From a virus: 32,057 nt of DNA. This document shows, one piece after another, positions 21,358-27,764 of this stretch. Location of the stretch: positions 1 through 32,057 of IMG/VR virus record IMGVR_UViG_3300025096_000077, one strand, 5' to 3'. The position numbers were made by a program, and so were the translations under genes. Within the stretch, counting starts at the first letter, position 1. Each line of letters opens with the position of its first letter. A model generated the notes under the pieces. That model was not told the origin of the DNA. It was given only the letters and a program-made list of their open reading frames with translations, and ran no database searches.

Positions 21358-22701
21358 TTAGTCCTTAAATGGTATTCGTCCGAAAGTATCACGTACTAGA
21401 GTCAAACTGGTATAAGTATCCTCTCTAGTGATTCTATGGCATAAACTCGCTATCATATATATGCCGCCAGTTTCCTTATTTACTTCTTTATTATGCTCTA
21501 CTGTCATGGTAGGGAAATCACAATAAATTAAGTCACCGGCTCGCAAGCTAAAGTCTCCTGCAATCATAACATTAGTTTTGATAGTAAACAACTGGTTATA
21601 TCTCATAATAGACTGAACCATCGTATTAGCAGCATCAAATGTTGGCAATTCAGGATTTTCCTTCCATTTTTCCAACTGTTTCTTAGGATTTTCTCCGGAA
21701 GGAAGCGTTCCCACATCCAATATATGAGTCATTAAGCGAGAAGGACCCTTTCTAAATTCTTCATGGATCCATCCCAAATCTTGCTTACCAGCATTCTTAA
21801 CTTTACCAATCTGCTTACTAATATTATAATCTCTTACCTTATATTTCATTGCATAGTAATCAAAAAATATACTACGATTAGCATAAATTCCAAAATTTAA
21901 ATTCTGTTCTAAATCAATATACCTATCAATACTAGCGGACAAAATCTTCCCATCATAACCCTCTACCTCATCAGGTTTACCTGTAATAACATATCTCTTA
22001 AGAGGTTCTCCATCCAAGATATAATCTATAGATTTAAAATGATATCCATCATAATTCTCAAAGAAAAAGTATCCTGCTGCACCCCCAATACTAGATTTAC
22101 CATCTACAGTTAGTGCAGGAATTGCTTTTTTTGCCAACCAACTACACACATAAAATGGTTTCTTATCATTCCCAATAAAATTATAAGGAATAGCACTCTC
22201 ATCAATATGAACAGGTTTCTGTGTCTGTATCCCACCCTTCTCAGTAAGAATCGTTTTTACATTACTACTAATTTTTCCATCATATCTTTTAACCACTCTA
22301 GTCTGATTATTAGCAAGGTGTTCTTTAGGACATAACTCGATAGTATAGATATCTTTTTGAGTTCCAGGATCTATATTGTTTATCTTATTAACATATAAAG
22401 CCTTCTCTTTTTTAAAAGATAATTGATTTGGTACACGTTGATTATCATTGATATCCAATAAAACCTCTTCCCCTCCTCTCACAGGAAGAGTATCCAAAAT
22501 TCCAAAAGGTCCAATATCTTTCTTATCAGTAAGACCAGTCTCCATGATTGTAGCTTTTACTTCTATACTAGGATTAAAAACATTTTCATAATAAAAAATA
22601 TCCTGCACAACCGCAGAAAAATCAATAGATTTTGATCCAGTTGGAGAAGTTATAAGAAACTTGGTGATATCACCAGTTCTAGTAGCTTGATTCTGTGACA
22701 T
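21358..22701 (-). CDS. gp27: Baseplate hub protein, gp27-like
   Basis: This 447-residue protein fits a T4 gp27-type hub subunit in position (beside the gp5-like gene) and in pattern. It has an N-terminal beta domain opening 'ITKFLITSPTGSKSIDFSAVVQDIFYYENVFNPSIEVKATIMETG', later strands such as 'DIYTIELCPKEHL', and a middle region with 'FIGNDKKPFYVCSWLAKKAIP' and 'YFFFENYDGYHFKSID'. A C-terminal beta domain follows ('LRAGDLIYCDFP', 'GGIYMIASLCHRITREDTYTSLTLVRD'). That last segment is typical of hub proteins of the gp27/VgrG type. T4 gp27 has 391 residues. The start overlaps the upstream tape-measure-like gene's stop as TAATG. Hub trimers bridge the tail tube and the gp5 spike. The symbol is given by similarity of role, not strong identity. 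Confidence 0.65.
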   Translation of the reverse strand: MSQNQATRTGDITKFLITSPTGSKSIDFSAVVQDIFYYENVFNPSIEVKATIMETGLTDKKDIGPFGILDTLPVRGGEEVLLDINDNQRVPNQLSFKKEKALYVNKINNIDPGTQKDIYTIELCPKEHLANNQTRVVKRYDGKISSNVKTILTEKGGIQTQKPVHIDESAIPYNFIGNDKKPFYVCSWLAKKAIPALTVDGKSSIGGAAGYFFFENYDGYHFKSIDYILDGEPLKRYVITGKPDEVEGYDGKILSASIDRYIDLEQNLNFGIYANRSIFFDYYAMKYKVRDYNISKQIGKVKNAGKQDLGWIHEEFRKGPSRLMTHILDVGTLPSGENPKKQLEKWKENPELPTFDAANTMVQSIMRYNQLFTIKTNVMIAGDFSLRAGDLIYCDFPTMTVEHNKEVNKETGGIYMIASLCHRITREDTYTSLTLVRDTFGRIPFKD

Positions 22702-24209
22702 TATACCTTAGATAATTCGTATTTGTAGATGTCCTTTGTTACATCCTTAGCACTATTTACTATGGGAACAGGAAGAATCTTAACCCCACCTCCACCACCT
22801 CCCGATGAAGGTGCTTCCTGCTTAGCCATAATAACATTAGTAGTTCCTCCTCCTTTTTCATAAGAAGCATGAGTATCAAGTCCTTGAGATAATTTAGCAG
22901 CTTGTTTCTTACTAATAGTTCCCGTTCCCAATAAATCAACACCCTCTACACTATTACTCCTAACCTTTTTTCTAAACTGTTCCACAGTCTCACCTGGGAG
23001 AAGACCAAAATTATCAACACTAGAAGAAGATGGATCACCACCTGTCCCTAATGGTACACCTTTTTTCGCTGATGTAGATCCATTACCATCAGACTTACCC
23101 TTACCCTTATCTTTATCTTTTTCGCCAAAGAATCCATACCTTTTGTCTTCTCCTGTTTCTAATCTATGAATCTGTTCTTCTCTTTCTGCTCCTGCACCAG
23201 TAATAAAATCACCCATTTTCTGCAAAGGATTACGATTTGCTTGCTCCTCTTTTAACTGATCAAGAGTTTCTTCTTTTCCTACATCTTCTACAGACTCATC
23301 AACCTTTTTATCTGGCTTACTTTTACCACCAAGCCATTGTGAAAACTCACCTATCTTTTTCATAAGACCATCAAATCCTTCCTTAACGGGTTTTAATTTT
23401 TCACCCATCTCTTTTAAATTCTGCCCAACCGTCTTTGTATCAGGCTCTTTAACTCCTAATAATCTTGCACTCCAATCAAGAACAAACCGAAATATTGATT
23501 TAAAGAAATCCCATGTTCCTTTGACCCAAGGTTCGAGTGCTTCCCATAATTTTTTTAAAGTCTCAACTGTCTTTTTATATGCTTCAACTATACTATCCCA
23601 TTGATTAAGTATATAAAGAAGAATAGATCCAATTACTACATTATTGATAAACTTCCCCATAGCATCAAAAGTTTTTTTCATCCCCGCAGGAGCCTTAGAT
23701 GCTAATCCCCTTACAAACTTAGATCCACGTTCTAATACTCCTTCTCTTCTCCTCCTTTGTGTCCTCGTATCTTGTAAACGGGCATCCTTAATACTCTGCT
23801 GCTCACCTTTTAACATACCCAGAATTGCATTATCAATATTATTCAGTGCATTATCAATAACTGGATTTCCTGTCGATCCCCCTGAAGAACCTGAAGAAGA
23901 AGGTCCTAATTTACTAGATGTAGATTCACCAGATCCTCCACCTCCTCCTTTTCTCGCTTTCATTTGTTTCCGAATCTCTTTCACATTCTTCATCATATTC
24001 TTCGCCATCTTTTTGCCAGATTTAGCACCTCTTCTCAGACCCTTTCCTGCTGCCTTAGCACCTCTTACCGCACCTCTTCCTGCTACCTTAGCACCACTTA
24101 CAGCAAGTCTACCTGCTCCCTTAGCCCCAGCTCCAGCGGCTCCTTTAGCAGCAACGGCAATTCCTTTAACCAAACCCCCTAGTGCACCAGCTACTGCAGA
24201 TACTGCCAT
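22701..24209 (-). CDS. Tape-measure-like protein, second paralogue
   Basis: This 502-residue protein has an Ala/Gly/Lys-rich basic N-terminus (1-90, many AAKG/GAKxAG repeats). A Ser/Gly linker follows, then a helical segment with 'RTQRRRREG', a hydrophobic stretch at about 188-205 ('FINNVVIGSILLYILNQW') and an amphipathic helix. The rest is a charged, low-complexity C-terminal half ending 'GGGVKILPVPIVNSAKDVTKDIYKYELSKV'. The middle block parallels the next gene upstream ('TFFGNIIAGSAILGFMNWIKEMDPSQW'), so the two appear to be paralogues. Lying between the tail-assembly-chaperone genes and the hub gene, they occupy the classic tape-measure position. No lysozyme or peptidase motif is seen. The function is inferred from position and composition. 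Confidence 0.55.
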   Translation of the reverse strand: MAVSAVAGALGGLVKGIAVAAKGAAGAGAKGAGRLAVSGAKVAGRGAVRGAKAAGKGLRRGAKSGKKMAKNMMKNVKEIRKQMKARKGGGGGSGESTSSKLGPSSSGSSGGSTGNPVIDNALNNIDNAILGMLKGEQQSIKDARLQDTRTQRRRREGVLERGSKFVRGLASKAPAGMKKTFDAMGKFINNVVIGSILLYILNQWDSIVEAYKKTVETLKKLWEALEPWVKGTWDFFKSIFRFVLDWSARLLGVKEPDTKTVGQNLKEMGEKLKPVKEGFDGLMKKIGEFSQWLGGKSKPDKKVDESVEDVGKEETLDQLKEEQANRNPLQKMGDFITGAGAEREEQIHRLETGEDKRYGFFGEKDKDKGKGKSDGNGSTSAKKGVPLGTGGDPSSSSVDNFGLLPGETVEQFRKKVRSNSVEGVDLLGTGTISKKQAAKLSQGLDTHASYEKGGGTTNVIMAKQEAPSSGGGGGGVKILPVPIVNSAKDVTKDIYKYELSKV

Positions 24210-24210
24210 C

Positions 24211-25710
24211 TTAGTTCACCGCCCCTAGAATAAATCGATTACCAATGTTTCCACTATCAGAAGGAAAACTTGGAACACTACTACCACCTTCTGATCCGGA
24301 ACTAGCTCCACCTCCACTTGAAGTATCACCTAAAGGTAAGAAATTAACACTACCCTCCTCACCTAAAGGTTGATCTATCTTTGGTTGAGTAATATTCTTC
24401 TCACCAACAGTTGCTGAAGATGGGGAAGGAATAGATGTTTGCGCTGCAGGAGAAGTAGAAGCTTTTCCTCCGGATCTAATCAAATTATCATATTTCTCAA
24501 CTGTCTTTTGTCTCTGAAGTGTTAATTCTTCCTTTTTCTTCTTCCCTGCTTCATTAAGTTTTCTATTTCTAACACTCGTCCCTGTGCTAAATTTAGGATC
24601 CCCTTTCAAACCGGCAATTTGTTTTTCAAGAGGTCCAATTATTTTATTCCTTTCCTTCTCAAGAGCATTTATCCTAGCACGTTCTGCTTCAACTTCTTCA
24701 AAAATTTTCTGCTGTTCCGCAGTCCTACCCTTATTTTCAAGTTTTTCCATCCTCTTCTGACCCGATCTTCCTGTAAACTGATCAGGTTTTCCAGCCTTAT
24801 CCATTCCAGCATCTCTCATTTTCTGATCAAGTTCTTTATCCTTTTCATAGGATGCTTCACCACCAGAAATCCTTTCACCTAACCATTTTTTTCCTTGTCC
24901 AAATTTCTTCCCAATCCATTGACCAGCCTTCTTACCAACATGAGCAACTGCCATAATAGCTGCTATTGCTGCTGCCGCTATTGCCATAAATGCCAGTGCT
25001 TTAGCTATAACTGCTATAAGAGGTCCAAATACTGTTACTGCACCAATTAATGCAAGAACAAATGTTCCCACTGTTGCTAAAACAGGAAGTGCAGCAACCG
25101 CCAATATTCCTCCCAAAATTAATCCTGCATTATCTTGTAGGGTTTTTATCATGCCCTGCCATTGGGAAGGATCCATCTCCTTGATCCAATTCATGAATCC
25201 CAAAATTGCAGATCCTGCTATGATATTACCAAAGAAGGTCTTAGCAACATCAAATACTCCCGTAAAAGGTGCTTTTATTGCACCCAATACTCCTCCGGCT
25301 CCACCTCCACCAGAACCCTGTTTCGCTTCTTTTTTCTTCTTTTTAGTTTCTATATCCCCTTCTCGTTCTCGTCGCCAAAATCTCAATCGGAATTTTTTAT
25401 TCTCATTGTTTGATTTTTGTTGAACTGCGCCCAAACCCCTCAAAGCTGAAGCAATACCGTTCAACCTCTCTGCAAGAACCTGATTATTAACACCTTCACC
25501 TTTAAGCTGCTTATCAACATTCTCCTTCCGAAGTTTAAGTATTTTGGTTACCTGCGTAATCTTTTTTGCATTAACATCAGACTTCTTCTCTACACCAATT
25601 ACCCTAGCAAGAACATTCTTCTGCACACCAACCATTTGTCCCATTCTCTCATGGGTTACAAAAGGTGTTGCTTTTGATTTTTCTCCTACTGGTGCTGGTA
25701 AGTCAGGCAT
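24211..25710 (-). CDS. Tape-measure-like tail protein, first paralogue
   Basis: This 499-residue protein has N-terminal helices (35-100, 'NAKKITQVTKILKLRKENVDKQ'), a very basic patch ('FRLRFWRREREGDIETKKKKKEAK', 108-130) and a Gly linker. A long hydrophobic region at about 160-256 holds several potential membrane segments ('LILGGILAVAALPVLATVGTFVLALIGAV', 'ALAFMAIAAAAIAAIMAVAHV'). A coiled, charged region and a Ser/Gly tail follow. Hydrophobic cores are usual in tail tape measures. It begins at a TAATG overlap with the gp51-position frame, and a tape measure commonly follows the frameshifted chaperone gene. T4's tape measure, gp29, has 590 residues. It may form the tape measure together with its paralogue. 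Gene identity with T4 gp29 cannot be shown by eye. Confidence 0.6.
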   Translation of the reverse strand: MPDLPAPVGEKSKATPFVTHERMGQMVGVQKNVLARVIGVEKKSDVNAKKITQVTKILKLRKENVDKQLKGEGVNNQVLAERLNGIASALRGLGAVQQKSNNENKKFRLRFWRREREGDIETKKKKKEAKQGSGGGGAGGVLGAIKAPFTGVFDVAKTFFGNIIAGSAILGFMNWIKEMDPSQWQGMIKTLQDNAGLILGGILAVAALPVLATVGTFVLALIGAVTVFGPLIAVIAKALAFMAIAAAAIAAIMAVAHVGKKAGQWIGKKFGQGKKWLGERISGGEASYEKDKELDQKMRDAGMDKAGKPDQFTGRSGQKRMEKLENKGRTAEQQKIFEEVEAERARINALEKERNKIIGPLEKQIAGLKGDPKFSTGTSVRNRKLNEAGKKKKEELTLQRQKTVEKYDNLIRSGGKASTSPAAQTSIPSPSSATVGEKNITQPKIDQPLGEEGSVNFLPLGDTSSGGGASSGSEGGSSVPSFPSDSGNIGNRFILGAVN

Positions 25711-25880
25711 TAACTTGCTTGTTGTTGCTGCTGTTTGAGTTTTTCTTCTTCAAGATGTTGTTGAAGAAGACTCACATAGATGTCTCGTTCCCAAGGAATA
25801 AGATTTTCTATCTCTGTTAAGCTATATTTATGGTACTGAACCAAGGCAAAGTTAATCTTATAGTAATTCTCTAGATCCAT
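25710..25880 (-). CDS. gp51: Small gp51-position baseplate/tail chaperone protein (56 aa), also -1 frameshift extension of gp26
   Basis: This short frame encodes 56 residues from ATG 25880 ('MDLENYYKINFALVQYHKYS', 'LIPWERDIYVSLLQQHLEEEKLKQQQQQAS'). It is mostly helical with a Gln-rich tail. The same frame is open upstream into the end of gp26, so a -1 slip at TTTTTTC (25904-25898) adds 62 residues to gp26 residue 238 and makes a 300-residue fusion. This arrangement mirrors the lambda G/GT tail chaperones. The stop overlaps the tape-measure-like ATG (TAATG). By position it corresponds to the short protein annotated gp51 (hub assembly catalyst) in cyanophages. Independent initiation at the ATG is also possible, with a weak TAGG about nine bases upstream. 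Confidence 0.75.
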   Translation of the reverse strand: MDLENYYKINFALVQYHKYSLTEIENLIPWERDIYVSLLQQHLEEEKLKQQQQQAS

Positions 25881-25919
25881 ATGGACTAGGCCTATCCGAA
25901 AAAACTGGATAATCCCTCC
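25871..25919 (-). promoter_or_regulatory. Predicted -1 programmed ribosomal frameshift signal
   Basis: Three elements lie in order on the mRNA (minus strand). First is an SD-like GGAGGG at 25919-25914. Nine bases later comes the slippery heptamer T TTT TTC at 25904-25898, correctly phased with gp26 codons Phe-Phe. Eight bases after that is a hairpin with arms CTAG-TCC (25889-25883) and GGA-T-CTAG (25878-25871), one bulged base and a four-base loop. The gp26 stop TAG lies at 25894-25892, between slip site and hairpin. The layout matches the E. coli dnaX type of -1 frameshift signal. Confidence 0.8.
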
Positions 25920-26611
25920 AGTACGACAGTACTCTTTACTTTTGTCTTCGGATTAGTAATCTCCACCTCATGAGATAACTTAGGCATAGTAGAAAAGAAA
26001 TTTTCAATCTCCTTAAATTGCTTACTATTCATCTGCTCTAAGAAATCTACAATTTCTTTATGAGTACAATCAGAAGTAGACCAAACTTCTTCCTCATTAT
26101 AAATTTTCTCAATACAAGCAGCAATCATATCAAATGATTGCTCTACTTGATTTTCTTCCTCAAAATCAAAATTCTGAGCAATAAATTGTTCTAATGAAGG
26201 ATATCTCAATTCCATCATAAGTTTATCATCTAAAGCAATTCTCCTCTCATGATCCTCTGATTTCTGCACTTCAATATCATCGATATTAATAACTACAGGA
26301 ACATTAGTCTCATTATCATCAGGACAAATAAGATTAACCTCAATCTCTTCACCCACAGACTTACCACGGATATTAAGAAAAATATATTCAATATCAAAAG
26401 TAGGAAGTTTCTCTACTTTAATTCCTCTACTTTTAATACAACTCTTTAATACAGCTTTAATTGCAGTAGTTATCTGTTTAGTATCTTCACTCTCAAGAGC
26501 AAGAACTAAAAGTTTTTCTTCTTTAACAAGAAAGGGTCTATACTTAATCGTCTTTCCTGTTGATGGCAACTCAAGTTCATATGTAGGAGTCGCAATGGTT
26601 GGTAATGGCAT
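25892..26611 (-). CDS. gp26: gp26-like baseplate hub assembly protein / tail assembly chaperone
   Basis: This 239-residue protein fits the T4 gp26-type family (T4_baseplate). Its opening 'YELELPSTGKTIKYRPFLVKEEKLLVLALESED' is the pattern of this family, followed by a helical hub-binding region and 'EEIEVNLICPDDNETNVPVVINIDDIEVQ'. In T4, gp26 (208 residues) helps assemble the baseplate hub and is thought not to remain as a major virion part. The last codons (AGT TTT TTC GGA TAG) hold a slippery site that would link it to the following 62-codon frame. A GATAAATA late-like promoter lies about 29 bases upstream. No ribosome site is evident. It directly precedes the tape-measure-like genes. Confidence 0.8.
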   Translation of the reverse strand: MPLPTIATPTYELELPSTGKTIKYRPFLVKEEKLLVLALESEDTKQITTAIKAVLKSCIKSRGIKVEKLPTFDIEYIFLNIRGKSVGEEIEVNLICPDDNETNVPVVINIDDIEVQKSEDHERRIALDDKLMMELRYPSLEQFIAQNFDFEEENQVEQSFDMIAACIEKIYNEEEVWSTSDCTHKEIVDFLEQMNSKQFKEIENFFSTMPKLSHEVEITNPKTKVKSTVVLEGLSSFFG

Positions 26612-26639: not shown

Positions 26640-26647
26640 TATTTATC
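26640..26647 (-). promoter_or_regulatory. T4-late-like promoter GATAAATA
   Basis: Minus-strand GATAAATAAAAC, overlapping the stop of the tube-fold gene and 29 bases before the gp26 ATG. The same twelve bases occur before the 4632 start. One base differs from the T4 late consensus. Confidence 0.5.
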
Positions 26648-27293
26648 ACCCAATTGTAGGAGGTGGGACTTCACTTCTAGTTTTGACATAACGCATATAG
26701 TTAAATGATGCAGTATAATTTAAAGCTGCACTCGCATCGTATGAAACTGATGTTGGTGCAATACTGATAGGAAAAGCACCAATAAACTGATAAGTCAAAT
26801 AATAACCCAATGCATCTTTTTCAAATTTTGAAATATAAAGATTATCGCTTTTATAACTACTAGGATAATTCATCCTGTAATAACGACTCCTACTAAGATA
26901 CTCTTCGTTAGTAAAAGTAGTTCCTTGACCAGTTATATAATTAATCCATCCTTCAAAGAACTGAATAACATTATAATCCTTATCCACCATAAATGTAAAG
27001 TCAAGTCTGTCATCAAATACTTTTCGATATGCCATCTTCTCAGTAACCCCAGGATAATCCAGAGTTACATCATGCGTTGCCAATGATTGACCAGGCAAAC
27101 TTGCACTACTACACAATAACTCAATATCTAATCCATCAGTTCCATAATCAAAATCAGGATCAGAGTTATTTAAAAAATCTCGCACTGGAGCTGGTGGCTG
27201 CATCTTAATCTGATATACCGAAGTCTGAGAGAGATTTAATATTCTACTTTTTATCGCAGAGGTACTGACTTTATTTGGCTTTGGACCTGCCAT
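26646..27293 (-). CDS. Tail-tube-fold protein (gp19/gp54-like)
   Basis: This 215-residue protein shows the T4 gp19 tube-fold pattern: 'LLCSSASLPGQSLATHDVTLDYPGVTEKMAYRKVFDDRLDFTFMVDKD', a helix 'VIQFFEGWINYITGQ', then 'YYLTYQFIGAFPISIAPTSVSYDASAALNYTASFNYMRYVKT'. T4 gp19 has the equivalent 'GLWPTNVGELQLDWDS...EVTLALDYW' ending. In T4 both gp48 and gp54 at the base of the tube share this fold. Since gp48 lies just across the divergent promoter, this is plausibly the gp54-like tube initiator, but it could be the tail tube protein itself. The N-terminus is basic and Ser-rich. It starts within a 30-base divergent intergenic region. Confidence 0.65.
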   Translation of the reverse strand: MAGPKPNKVSTSAIKSRILNLSQTSVYQIKMQPPAPVRDFLNNSDPDFDYGTDGLDIELLCSSASLPGQSLATHDVTLDYPGVTEKMAYRKVFDDRLDFTFMVDKDYNVIQFFEGWINYITGQGTTFTNEEYLSRSRYYRMNYPSSYKSDNLYISKFEKDALGYYLTYQFIGAFPISIAPTSVSYDASAALNYTASFNYMRYVKTRSEVPPPTIG

Positions 27294-27323: not shown

Positions 27324-27764
27324 ATGGCCGAAAGTAAGAAGAGTTTATTTAGACCCCACAATCCCAGAAAATATAAAGGTGATGTTAGAAATATTATCTG
27401 TCGTAGTAGTTGGGAAAATAAATTCTGTAGCTGGTGCGATTTAAATGAAAATATTATTGAATGGGGAAGTGAAGAATTCTTTATCCCATACCGTGCTCCT
27501 GATGGTAGAGTGCGTCGTTATTTTCCAGACTTTATTATGAAGGTAAGAGAAAATAGTGGGGATATTAAAACATATGTTATTGAAGTTAAACCTGCTAAAC
27601 AAACCAAACGACCTAAACCCAGAAAAAAAGTGACTAAATCATATCTCTATGAATGTAAAACATATGAGGTCAATCAAGCAAAATGGAAAGCAGCATCCGA
27701 ATGGTGTAAAGATCATCAAGTAGAATTTAAAATCGTCACTGAAAAAGAATTAGGTATCAGATAA
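27324..27764 (+). CDS. gp4: gp4 head completion protein, PD-(D/E)xK nuclease fold
   Basis: This 146-residue protein matches the T4 gp4 (gp50) head-completion family, which resembles TnsA-type endonucleases. Nuclease residues are visible: 'SSWENKFCSWCDLNENIIEWGSEEFFIPY' (E31 and surroundings), 'RRYFPDFIM' (P68-D69), and 'KTYVIEVKPAKQ' (E87-x-K89), which together make the PD-(D/E)xK core. The protein acts at the end of head assembly, possibly trimming or protecting packaged DNA ends before neck attachment. It is slightly shorter than T4 gp4 (150 residues). It starts 20 bases after an exact late promoter, and its stop overlaps the next ATG (TAATG). Confidence 0.88.
   Translation: MAESKKSLFRPHNPRKYKGDVRNIICRSSWENKFCSWCDLNENIIEWGSEEFFIPYRAPDGRVRRYFPDFIMKVRENSGDIKTYVIEVKPAKQTKRPKPRKKVTKSYLYECKTYEVNQAKWKAASEWCKDHQVEFKIVTEKELGIR

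Follow-up and report, generated by a model that had tools for sequence, protein, structure and literature searches.

We predict, with a probability of roughly 95%, that gene 26 of this marine T4-like phage ends in a programmed −1 frameshift that yields a short and a long tail assembly chaperone, a pair resembling the lambda G/GT proteins. The prediction draws on the slip site, its conservation, the open and conserved −1 frame, the homology of the downstream domain and the existence of a one-piece equivalent, T4 gp51. The window, that is, the whole stretch of 32,057 nucleotides analysed here (IMG/VR record IMGVR_UViG_3300025096_000077), is a further example of a known system: Vladimirov, Gautam & Davidson (Virology 2022, 566:9-15), cited in PMC10885494 and PMC12846349, named gp26/gp51 the tail assembly chaperones of T4-like phages. 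As far as the citing papers convey it, their system involves the same genes and the same junction. The preliminary description of this DNA had known of no account of such a frameshift for T4 gp26; the 2022 report had already described it.

We infer the occurrence and efficiency of slippage and the roles of the two proteins as follows. gp26 would act as the short chaperone, TAC-N, in the place of lambda gpG. Some ribosomes would slip back by one base on T TTT TTC, just ahead of the gp26 stop, aided by pairing of the upstream GGAGGG with 16S rRNA and possibly also by a downstream hairpin, and would continue in the −1 frame to give a long form of 300 aa (TAC-NC, comparable to lambda gpGT) whose C-terminal domain comprises 62 residues. 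If lambda is a guide, binding of the tape measure protein would fall to the gp26 part and recruitment of tail tube subunits to the added domain; given these expected roles, the ratio of short to long form should matter for tail assembly. The elements concerned, all on the minus strand of the window, are the following:

26646..27293 (−): upstream gene, tail tube protein in the position of lambda V (Phage_TTP_2, 1.1e-10; phrog_45 tail tube, 6.3e-30)
25892..26611 (−): gp26, 239 aa, predicted short tail assembly chaperone form (TAC-N, G-like) (Pfam T4_baseplate, phrog_150)
25919-25914 (−): Shine-Dalgarno-like GGAGGG, candidate stimulator, 9 nt upstream of the slippery heptamer (AGGG codon bias)
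25904-25898 (−): putative slippery heptamer T TTT TTC, in phase for a −1 slip (in-phase T TTT TTN in 237/239 loci)
25894-25892 (−): zero-frame stop TAG, 3 nt past the heptamer (read from the sequence)
25889-25871 (−): downstream hairpin, possible stimulator; window form bulged, 7 pairs (fold −7 kcal/mol)
25883-25887 / 25874-25878 (−): hairpin core conserved in the window's clade (86% paired; covariation)
25710..25898 (−): −1 frame extension, 62 codons plus stop TAA, predicted TAC-C / T-like domain (phrog_634, phrog_150, pN/pS)
25878..25880 (−): ATG inside both extension and hairpin, the usual annotated 'gp51' start (weak Shine-Dalgarno sequence, GGA at 11 nt)
24211..25710 (−): next gene, 499 aa, tentatively tape-measure-like only (weak similarity to a P-TIM68 gene)

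On the minus strand, the 3′ end of gp26 reads ...AGT TTT TTC GGA TAG, and the elements follow one another in the order GGAGGG, 9 bases, TTTTTTC, GGATAGGC and the hairpin CTAGTCC-ATAT-GGA-T-CTAG (25889-25871). T TTT TTC (25904-25898) is thus a heptamer of the X XXY YYZ type lying in phase ahead of the zero-frame stop. The components that the preliminary description had placed in the interval 25871-25919, namely GGAGGG, a 9-nt spacer and an in-phase T TTT TTC, with the gp26 stop between heptamer and hairpin, are all present, and its claim of an open 62-codon −1 extension reaching the next gene is borne out by the sequence. The TAA of the extension (25712-25710) overlaps the ATG of that gene (TAATG). 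The predicted fusion comprises 238 + 62 = 300 aa, with STVVLEGLSSFFR as the predicted junction peptide. No Rfam family matches the element.

gp26 belongs to the T4 gp26 family, as seen from its matches to Pfam T4_baseplate (PF12322, 2.3e-75) and phrog_150 (3.2e-80). The 56 residues of the extension from the internal ATG onwards match phrog_634, 'baseplate hub assembly catalyst' (8.5e-28), and the same residues also match positions 241-281 of phrog_150, i.e. its last ~40 positions; some gp26-family members therefore carry the domain fused. AlphaFold2 returned a confident model of gp26 (pLDDT 88), for which Foldseek gave the highest probability in the PDB to the HK97 tail assembly chaperone 2ob9 (0.69), a weak match with an E-value of 1.3 over 62 columns. 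No relative turned up when PDB sequences were searched with the gp26 profile, and the resemblance of the modelled fold to 2ob9 is a hint only.

The order of genes around gp26 may follow the lambda arrangement of tail tube, chaperone and tape measure, with the tail tube gene upstream and a downstream gene that is tape-measure-like only through relatives. The product of the 499-aa gene gave no tape-measure family match of its own; it weakly resembles a P-TIM68 gene (9e-07), which in turn matches tape-measure PHROGs (2.7e-07). The preliminary description had the extension end at a tape-measure-like gene: the adjoining gene is there, and its tape-measure identity stays tentative, by way of the P-TIM68 gene. 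The second gene past gp26 (window 22701-24209, minus strand) shows a weak match to the tape-measure family phrog_4200 (1.1e-05), so that two genes may share the tape measure function here.

We assembled 239 gp26 loci from five scans of viral contigs by protein similarity and a panel of named phages; the scans did not select for the slip site. In 237 of them, the corresponding position carries an in-phase T TTT TTN and the −1 frame continues without a stop into the shared C-terminal domain, the two exceptions being one Ackermannviridae phage and one T-even phage. The site is also present in seven named phages examined in addition, among them P-SSM2, P-SSM3 and three Aeromonas/Cronobacter phages. 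The loci span Kyanoviridae, Pelagibacter, Methylophilales, Sinorhizobium, Stenotrophomonas, Acidovorax and non-T-even Straboviridae phages and include very divergent gp26 proteins. Across the 237 loci the last base of the heptamer is C in 171, T in 37, A in 28 and G in one; the second residue is accordingly Phe or Leu, and the slip run is kept regardless. The codon ahead of the T run (AGT, TCT, AAT, GAT, GCT or GGT) ends in T in every case, the zero-frame stop lies 0, 3 or 6 nt past the heptamer in all 237, and the extension measures 55-69 codons. Elsewhere in gp26, the run occurs in 14 of 540 F[FL] codon pairs. For 148 representatives, codon choice alone would have a probability of ~1e-54 if they were independent, a figure that is overstated because the loci are related. 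Among other ORF ends of the same loci, 0/762 had both an in-phase TTTTTT within their final 12 codons and a −1 extension of at least 40 codons; seven raw matches were gp26 itself in the added phages and were not counted among the other ORFs.

The −1 frame is under coding constraint. It is free of stops in 148/148 representatives, and the extension has a pN/pS of 0.15 in the window's clade. Between the slip site and the ATG, pN/pS is 0.38-0.54 in the −1 frame and above 1.2 in the other frames; since these constrained codons lie upstream of the only candidate start codon, they would be translatable only after a shift. In about 40% of the loci (95/237) the first 12 codons of the extension contain no Met, which leaves no way to make the domain there from a gene of its own. 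Conservation, codon choice, −1 coding constraint, missing start codons and T4 gp51 thus jointly support the G/GT-like frameshift that the preliminary description had proposed.

Under the most obvious alternative, the downstream frame would be an ordinary small gene ('gp51, baseplate hub assembly catalyst') translated by re-initiation at ATG 25880, with no meaningful frameshift product. Such a gene is annotated separately in S-SM2, P-TIM68, B23, P-SSM2 and others, and the ATG at 25880 is kept across most of the window's clade, being missing in loci L057, L063 and L065 and replaced by TTG in L080. However, this explanation has to contend with the 95 loci that lack an early Met, with the coding constraint on the −1 frame ahead of the ATG, and with a start codon that has a weak Shine-Dalgarno sequence and sits in the hairpin. 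Moreover, annotators truncated the domain in Syn19 and HTVC008M and missed it in Aeh1, CC2, S13 and ACG-2014j, and the invariant TTTTTT is left unexplained. We consider it very unlikely as an account of the locus, while in the window's clade some separate translation of the domain from the kept ATG 25880 may accompany the frameshift.

Slightly less likely again is a frame change made by RNA polymerase slipping on the T run (transcriptional realignment) instead of by the ribosome. HTVC008M and Melnitz-3 contain runs of eight T (GTTTTTTTTAA), which favour it, yet most loci have only six T followed by C, A or G, a short stretch for a polymerase to slip on; the run stays in ribosome phase with a T-ending codon ahead, and the Shine-Dalgarno-like element at a fixed distance points to translation. 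The least probable reading, which we consider extremely unlikely, is that the T run merely meets a protein-level need for Phe-Phe and that the overlap is incidental. The pair does belong to a motif of the gp26 family, and T4 gp26 has it too (GLKEFFELL), but T-even phages write it TTC TTT, and in 29 loci the second codon is TTA or TTG (Leu) and the T run is still there. In addition, the preceding codon ends in T whatever its residue, and none of the 762 other ORF ends looks alike. All three alternatives were rejected as main explanations in favour of programmed ribosomal frameshifting. In Pelagibacter and Methylophilales phage relatives (loci L086, L087 and L159-L174) longer T runs extend into the stop, and there transcriptional slippage could add to ribosomal slippage.

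Codon usage upstream of the heptamer points to a stimulatory role for the Shine-Dalgarno-like element. In the conservation check proposed for the GGAGG-type element, AGGG is kept in 126/137 Glu-Gly codon pairs at the site versus 10/49 elsewhere in gp26. Where Glu is encoded by GAA, Gly is GGG in 23/34 cases at the site versus 1/40 elsewhere. By these counts, the choice of Glu-Gly codons keeps an SD-like AGGG beyond what protein coding explains.

The hairpin is more restricted. In the window, the bulged 7-pair structure (−7 kcal/mol), which starts 8 nt past the heptamer, is the minimum-energy fold given by RNAfold; compared with shuffled sequences it is unexceptional on its own (z −0.1 to −1.3). 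What the window's clade keeps is a stem of five pairs with a 4-nt loop (offsets 17-21/26-30), beginning 10 nt past the heptamer, a spacing that is long for a stimulator. The bulged hairpin reported in the preliminary description is therefore present in the window, whereas as a conserved unit it gives way to the 5-pair stem. This stem is paired in 86% of cells, double changes number 36 versus 8.2 in shuffles (0/500), and the strongest covariation of any pair in the region falls within it; by this measure, covariation in the window's clade goes beyond what protein coding explains. The stem was sought in lineages outside the clade and is not kept there, so that a role of the hairpin as stimulator is plausible only for the window's lineage. 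Some clade members lengthen the hairpin to about 13 pairs with −14 to −16 kcal/mol (L054:3715-3756, L072:1659-1700); such lengthened stems begin close past the heptamer and reach z −3.3 to −5 against shuffles.

T4 gp51 provides an independent view of the long form. Its residues 1-201 match PF12322 (3.9e-52), the same Pfam family as gp26, it matches phrog_150 over 3-248, and its residues 15 to 246 align end to end with a profile of the frameshift fusion. phrog_634 matches both the window extension and T4 gp51, indicating a shared, homologous C-terminal domain. T4 gp51 (L094:3980-4729) thus combines, like the predicted window fusion, a gp26-family N-terminal domain and the same C-terminal domain, the composition of a long chaperone. 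Unlike the window fusion, it is encoded by one uninterrupted gene, on the strand opposite gene 26, and involves no frameshift. T4 and its near relatives write the Phe-Phe of gp26 as TTC TTT, which is non-slippery, and there gene 25 comes next. Judged from these genomes, T-even gp26 has lost its slippery codons and the T4 long form exists without frameshifting. The 2022 study reportedly found the frameshift to persist in several T4-like groups, with genes 26 and 51 taking its place in the T4 group. PMC10885494, citing Vladimirov et al. 2022, describes some T4-like phages that do not frameshift but have two genes, a short one and a longer fused one; PMC3004832 lists T4 gp26 and gp51 as hub assembly chaperones, gp51 being required and absent from the particle. 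The wide sampling amounts to a natural experiment, in which the slip site is gone where a fused gene is present, and T4's essential, long-unexplained gp51 makes sense as a one-piece long chaperone.

In lambda, ribosomes slip by −1 shortly before the end of a short gene that lies between those for the tail tube and the tape measure, which gives a low-abundance long form; this type of tail chaperone frameshift was reportedly found by Xu, Hendrix and Duda in 2004, cited in PMC10885494, to be widely conserved. The window shares with G/GT the predicted −1 slip at the end of the short gene that makes a long form; the lambda slip site is G GGA AAG, in contrast to T TTT TTC with an SD-like element here. 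The comparison with lambda and HK97 is made by gene order and the weak match to the HK97 chaperone fold. We regard the gp26/gp51 frameshift system as the equivalent of lambda G/GT in T4-like phages. The equivalence suggested in the preliminary description is supported with one amendment: the T4 long form is gene 51 itself, so that what cyanophage annotations call 'gp51' corresponds to no more than the C-terminal domain of that protein and the label needs correction. PMC12846349 reports poly-T −1 frameshift signals in T4-like TAC-N genes, citing Vladimirov et al. 2022, and an invariant GTTTTT for the TAC frameshift of Vandenendeviridae and Andersonviridae. These virus families differ from that of the window; compared by site and annotation, they resemble it in having a T-rich slip at the end of TAC-N and a downstream domain that is annotated separately or missing.

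In Ackermannviridae, a gp26-family gene is followed by a related domain in the −1 frame (phrog_9633; phrog_634 at 0.0027). The candidate site there is N NTT TTC, one codon ahead of the stop, as in GAG ATT TTC ATT TAA, and in Kuttervirus no start codon precedes the domain. The pattern [AGC]TT TTC plus one codon and stop, often with an unannotated −1 domain, recurs in Ackermannviridae and related Vibrio phages (L253, L254, L255, L257, L258-L272, L279, L092, L252); this putative slip site is a weaker and unusual one. A viral-contig scan with gp26 of Vibrio phage SUMAE as query gave no match. In the searchable literature, where Vladimirov et al. 2022 is represented through citing papers, we found no description of the SD-like codon bias, the clade-specific hairpin or the Ackermannviridae form. 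We tentatively suggest, at a little short of even odds, two additions to the known system that we did not find described there: use of the gp26/−1-domain junction beyond T4-like phages with a different slip site (N NTT TTC with a mostly unannotated −1 domain in Kuttervirus, Limestonevirus, Taipeivirus, Miltonvirus and Vibrio relatives), and a covarying hairpin that holds the annotated gp51 start in the window's cyanophage clade.

For annotation, these results would correct how one core gene is labelled in cyanophages and marine T4-like phages, with hundreds of genomes affected. Named genomes give the domain as a separate small gene, as a truncated gene or not at all, and 'gp51, baseplate hub assembly catalyst' in those genomes is best read as the tail end of a frameshift protein, often truncated or missed. 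The C-terminal chaperone domain is wholly unannotated in Aeh1, CC2, S13, ACG-2014j, phiMAM1 and SUMAE (L090, L246, L247, L250, L254, L255). Elsewhere in the window, a head completion (gp4-like) gene at 27324-27764 on the plus strand matches the Pfam TnsA-like endonuclease N-terminal domain (5e-25) and also has a head closure PHROG match.
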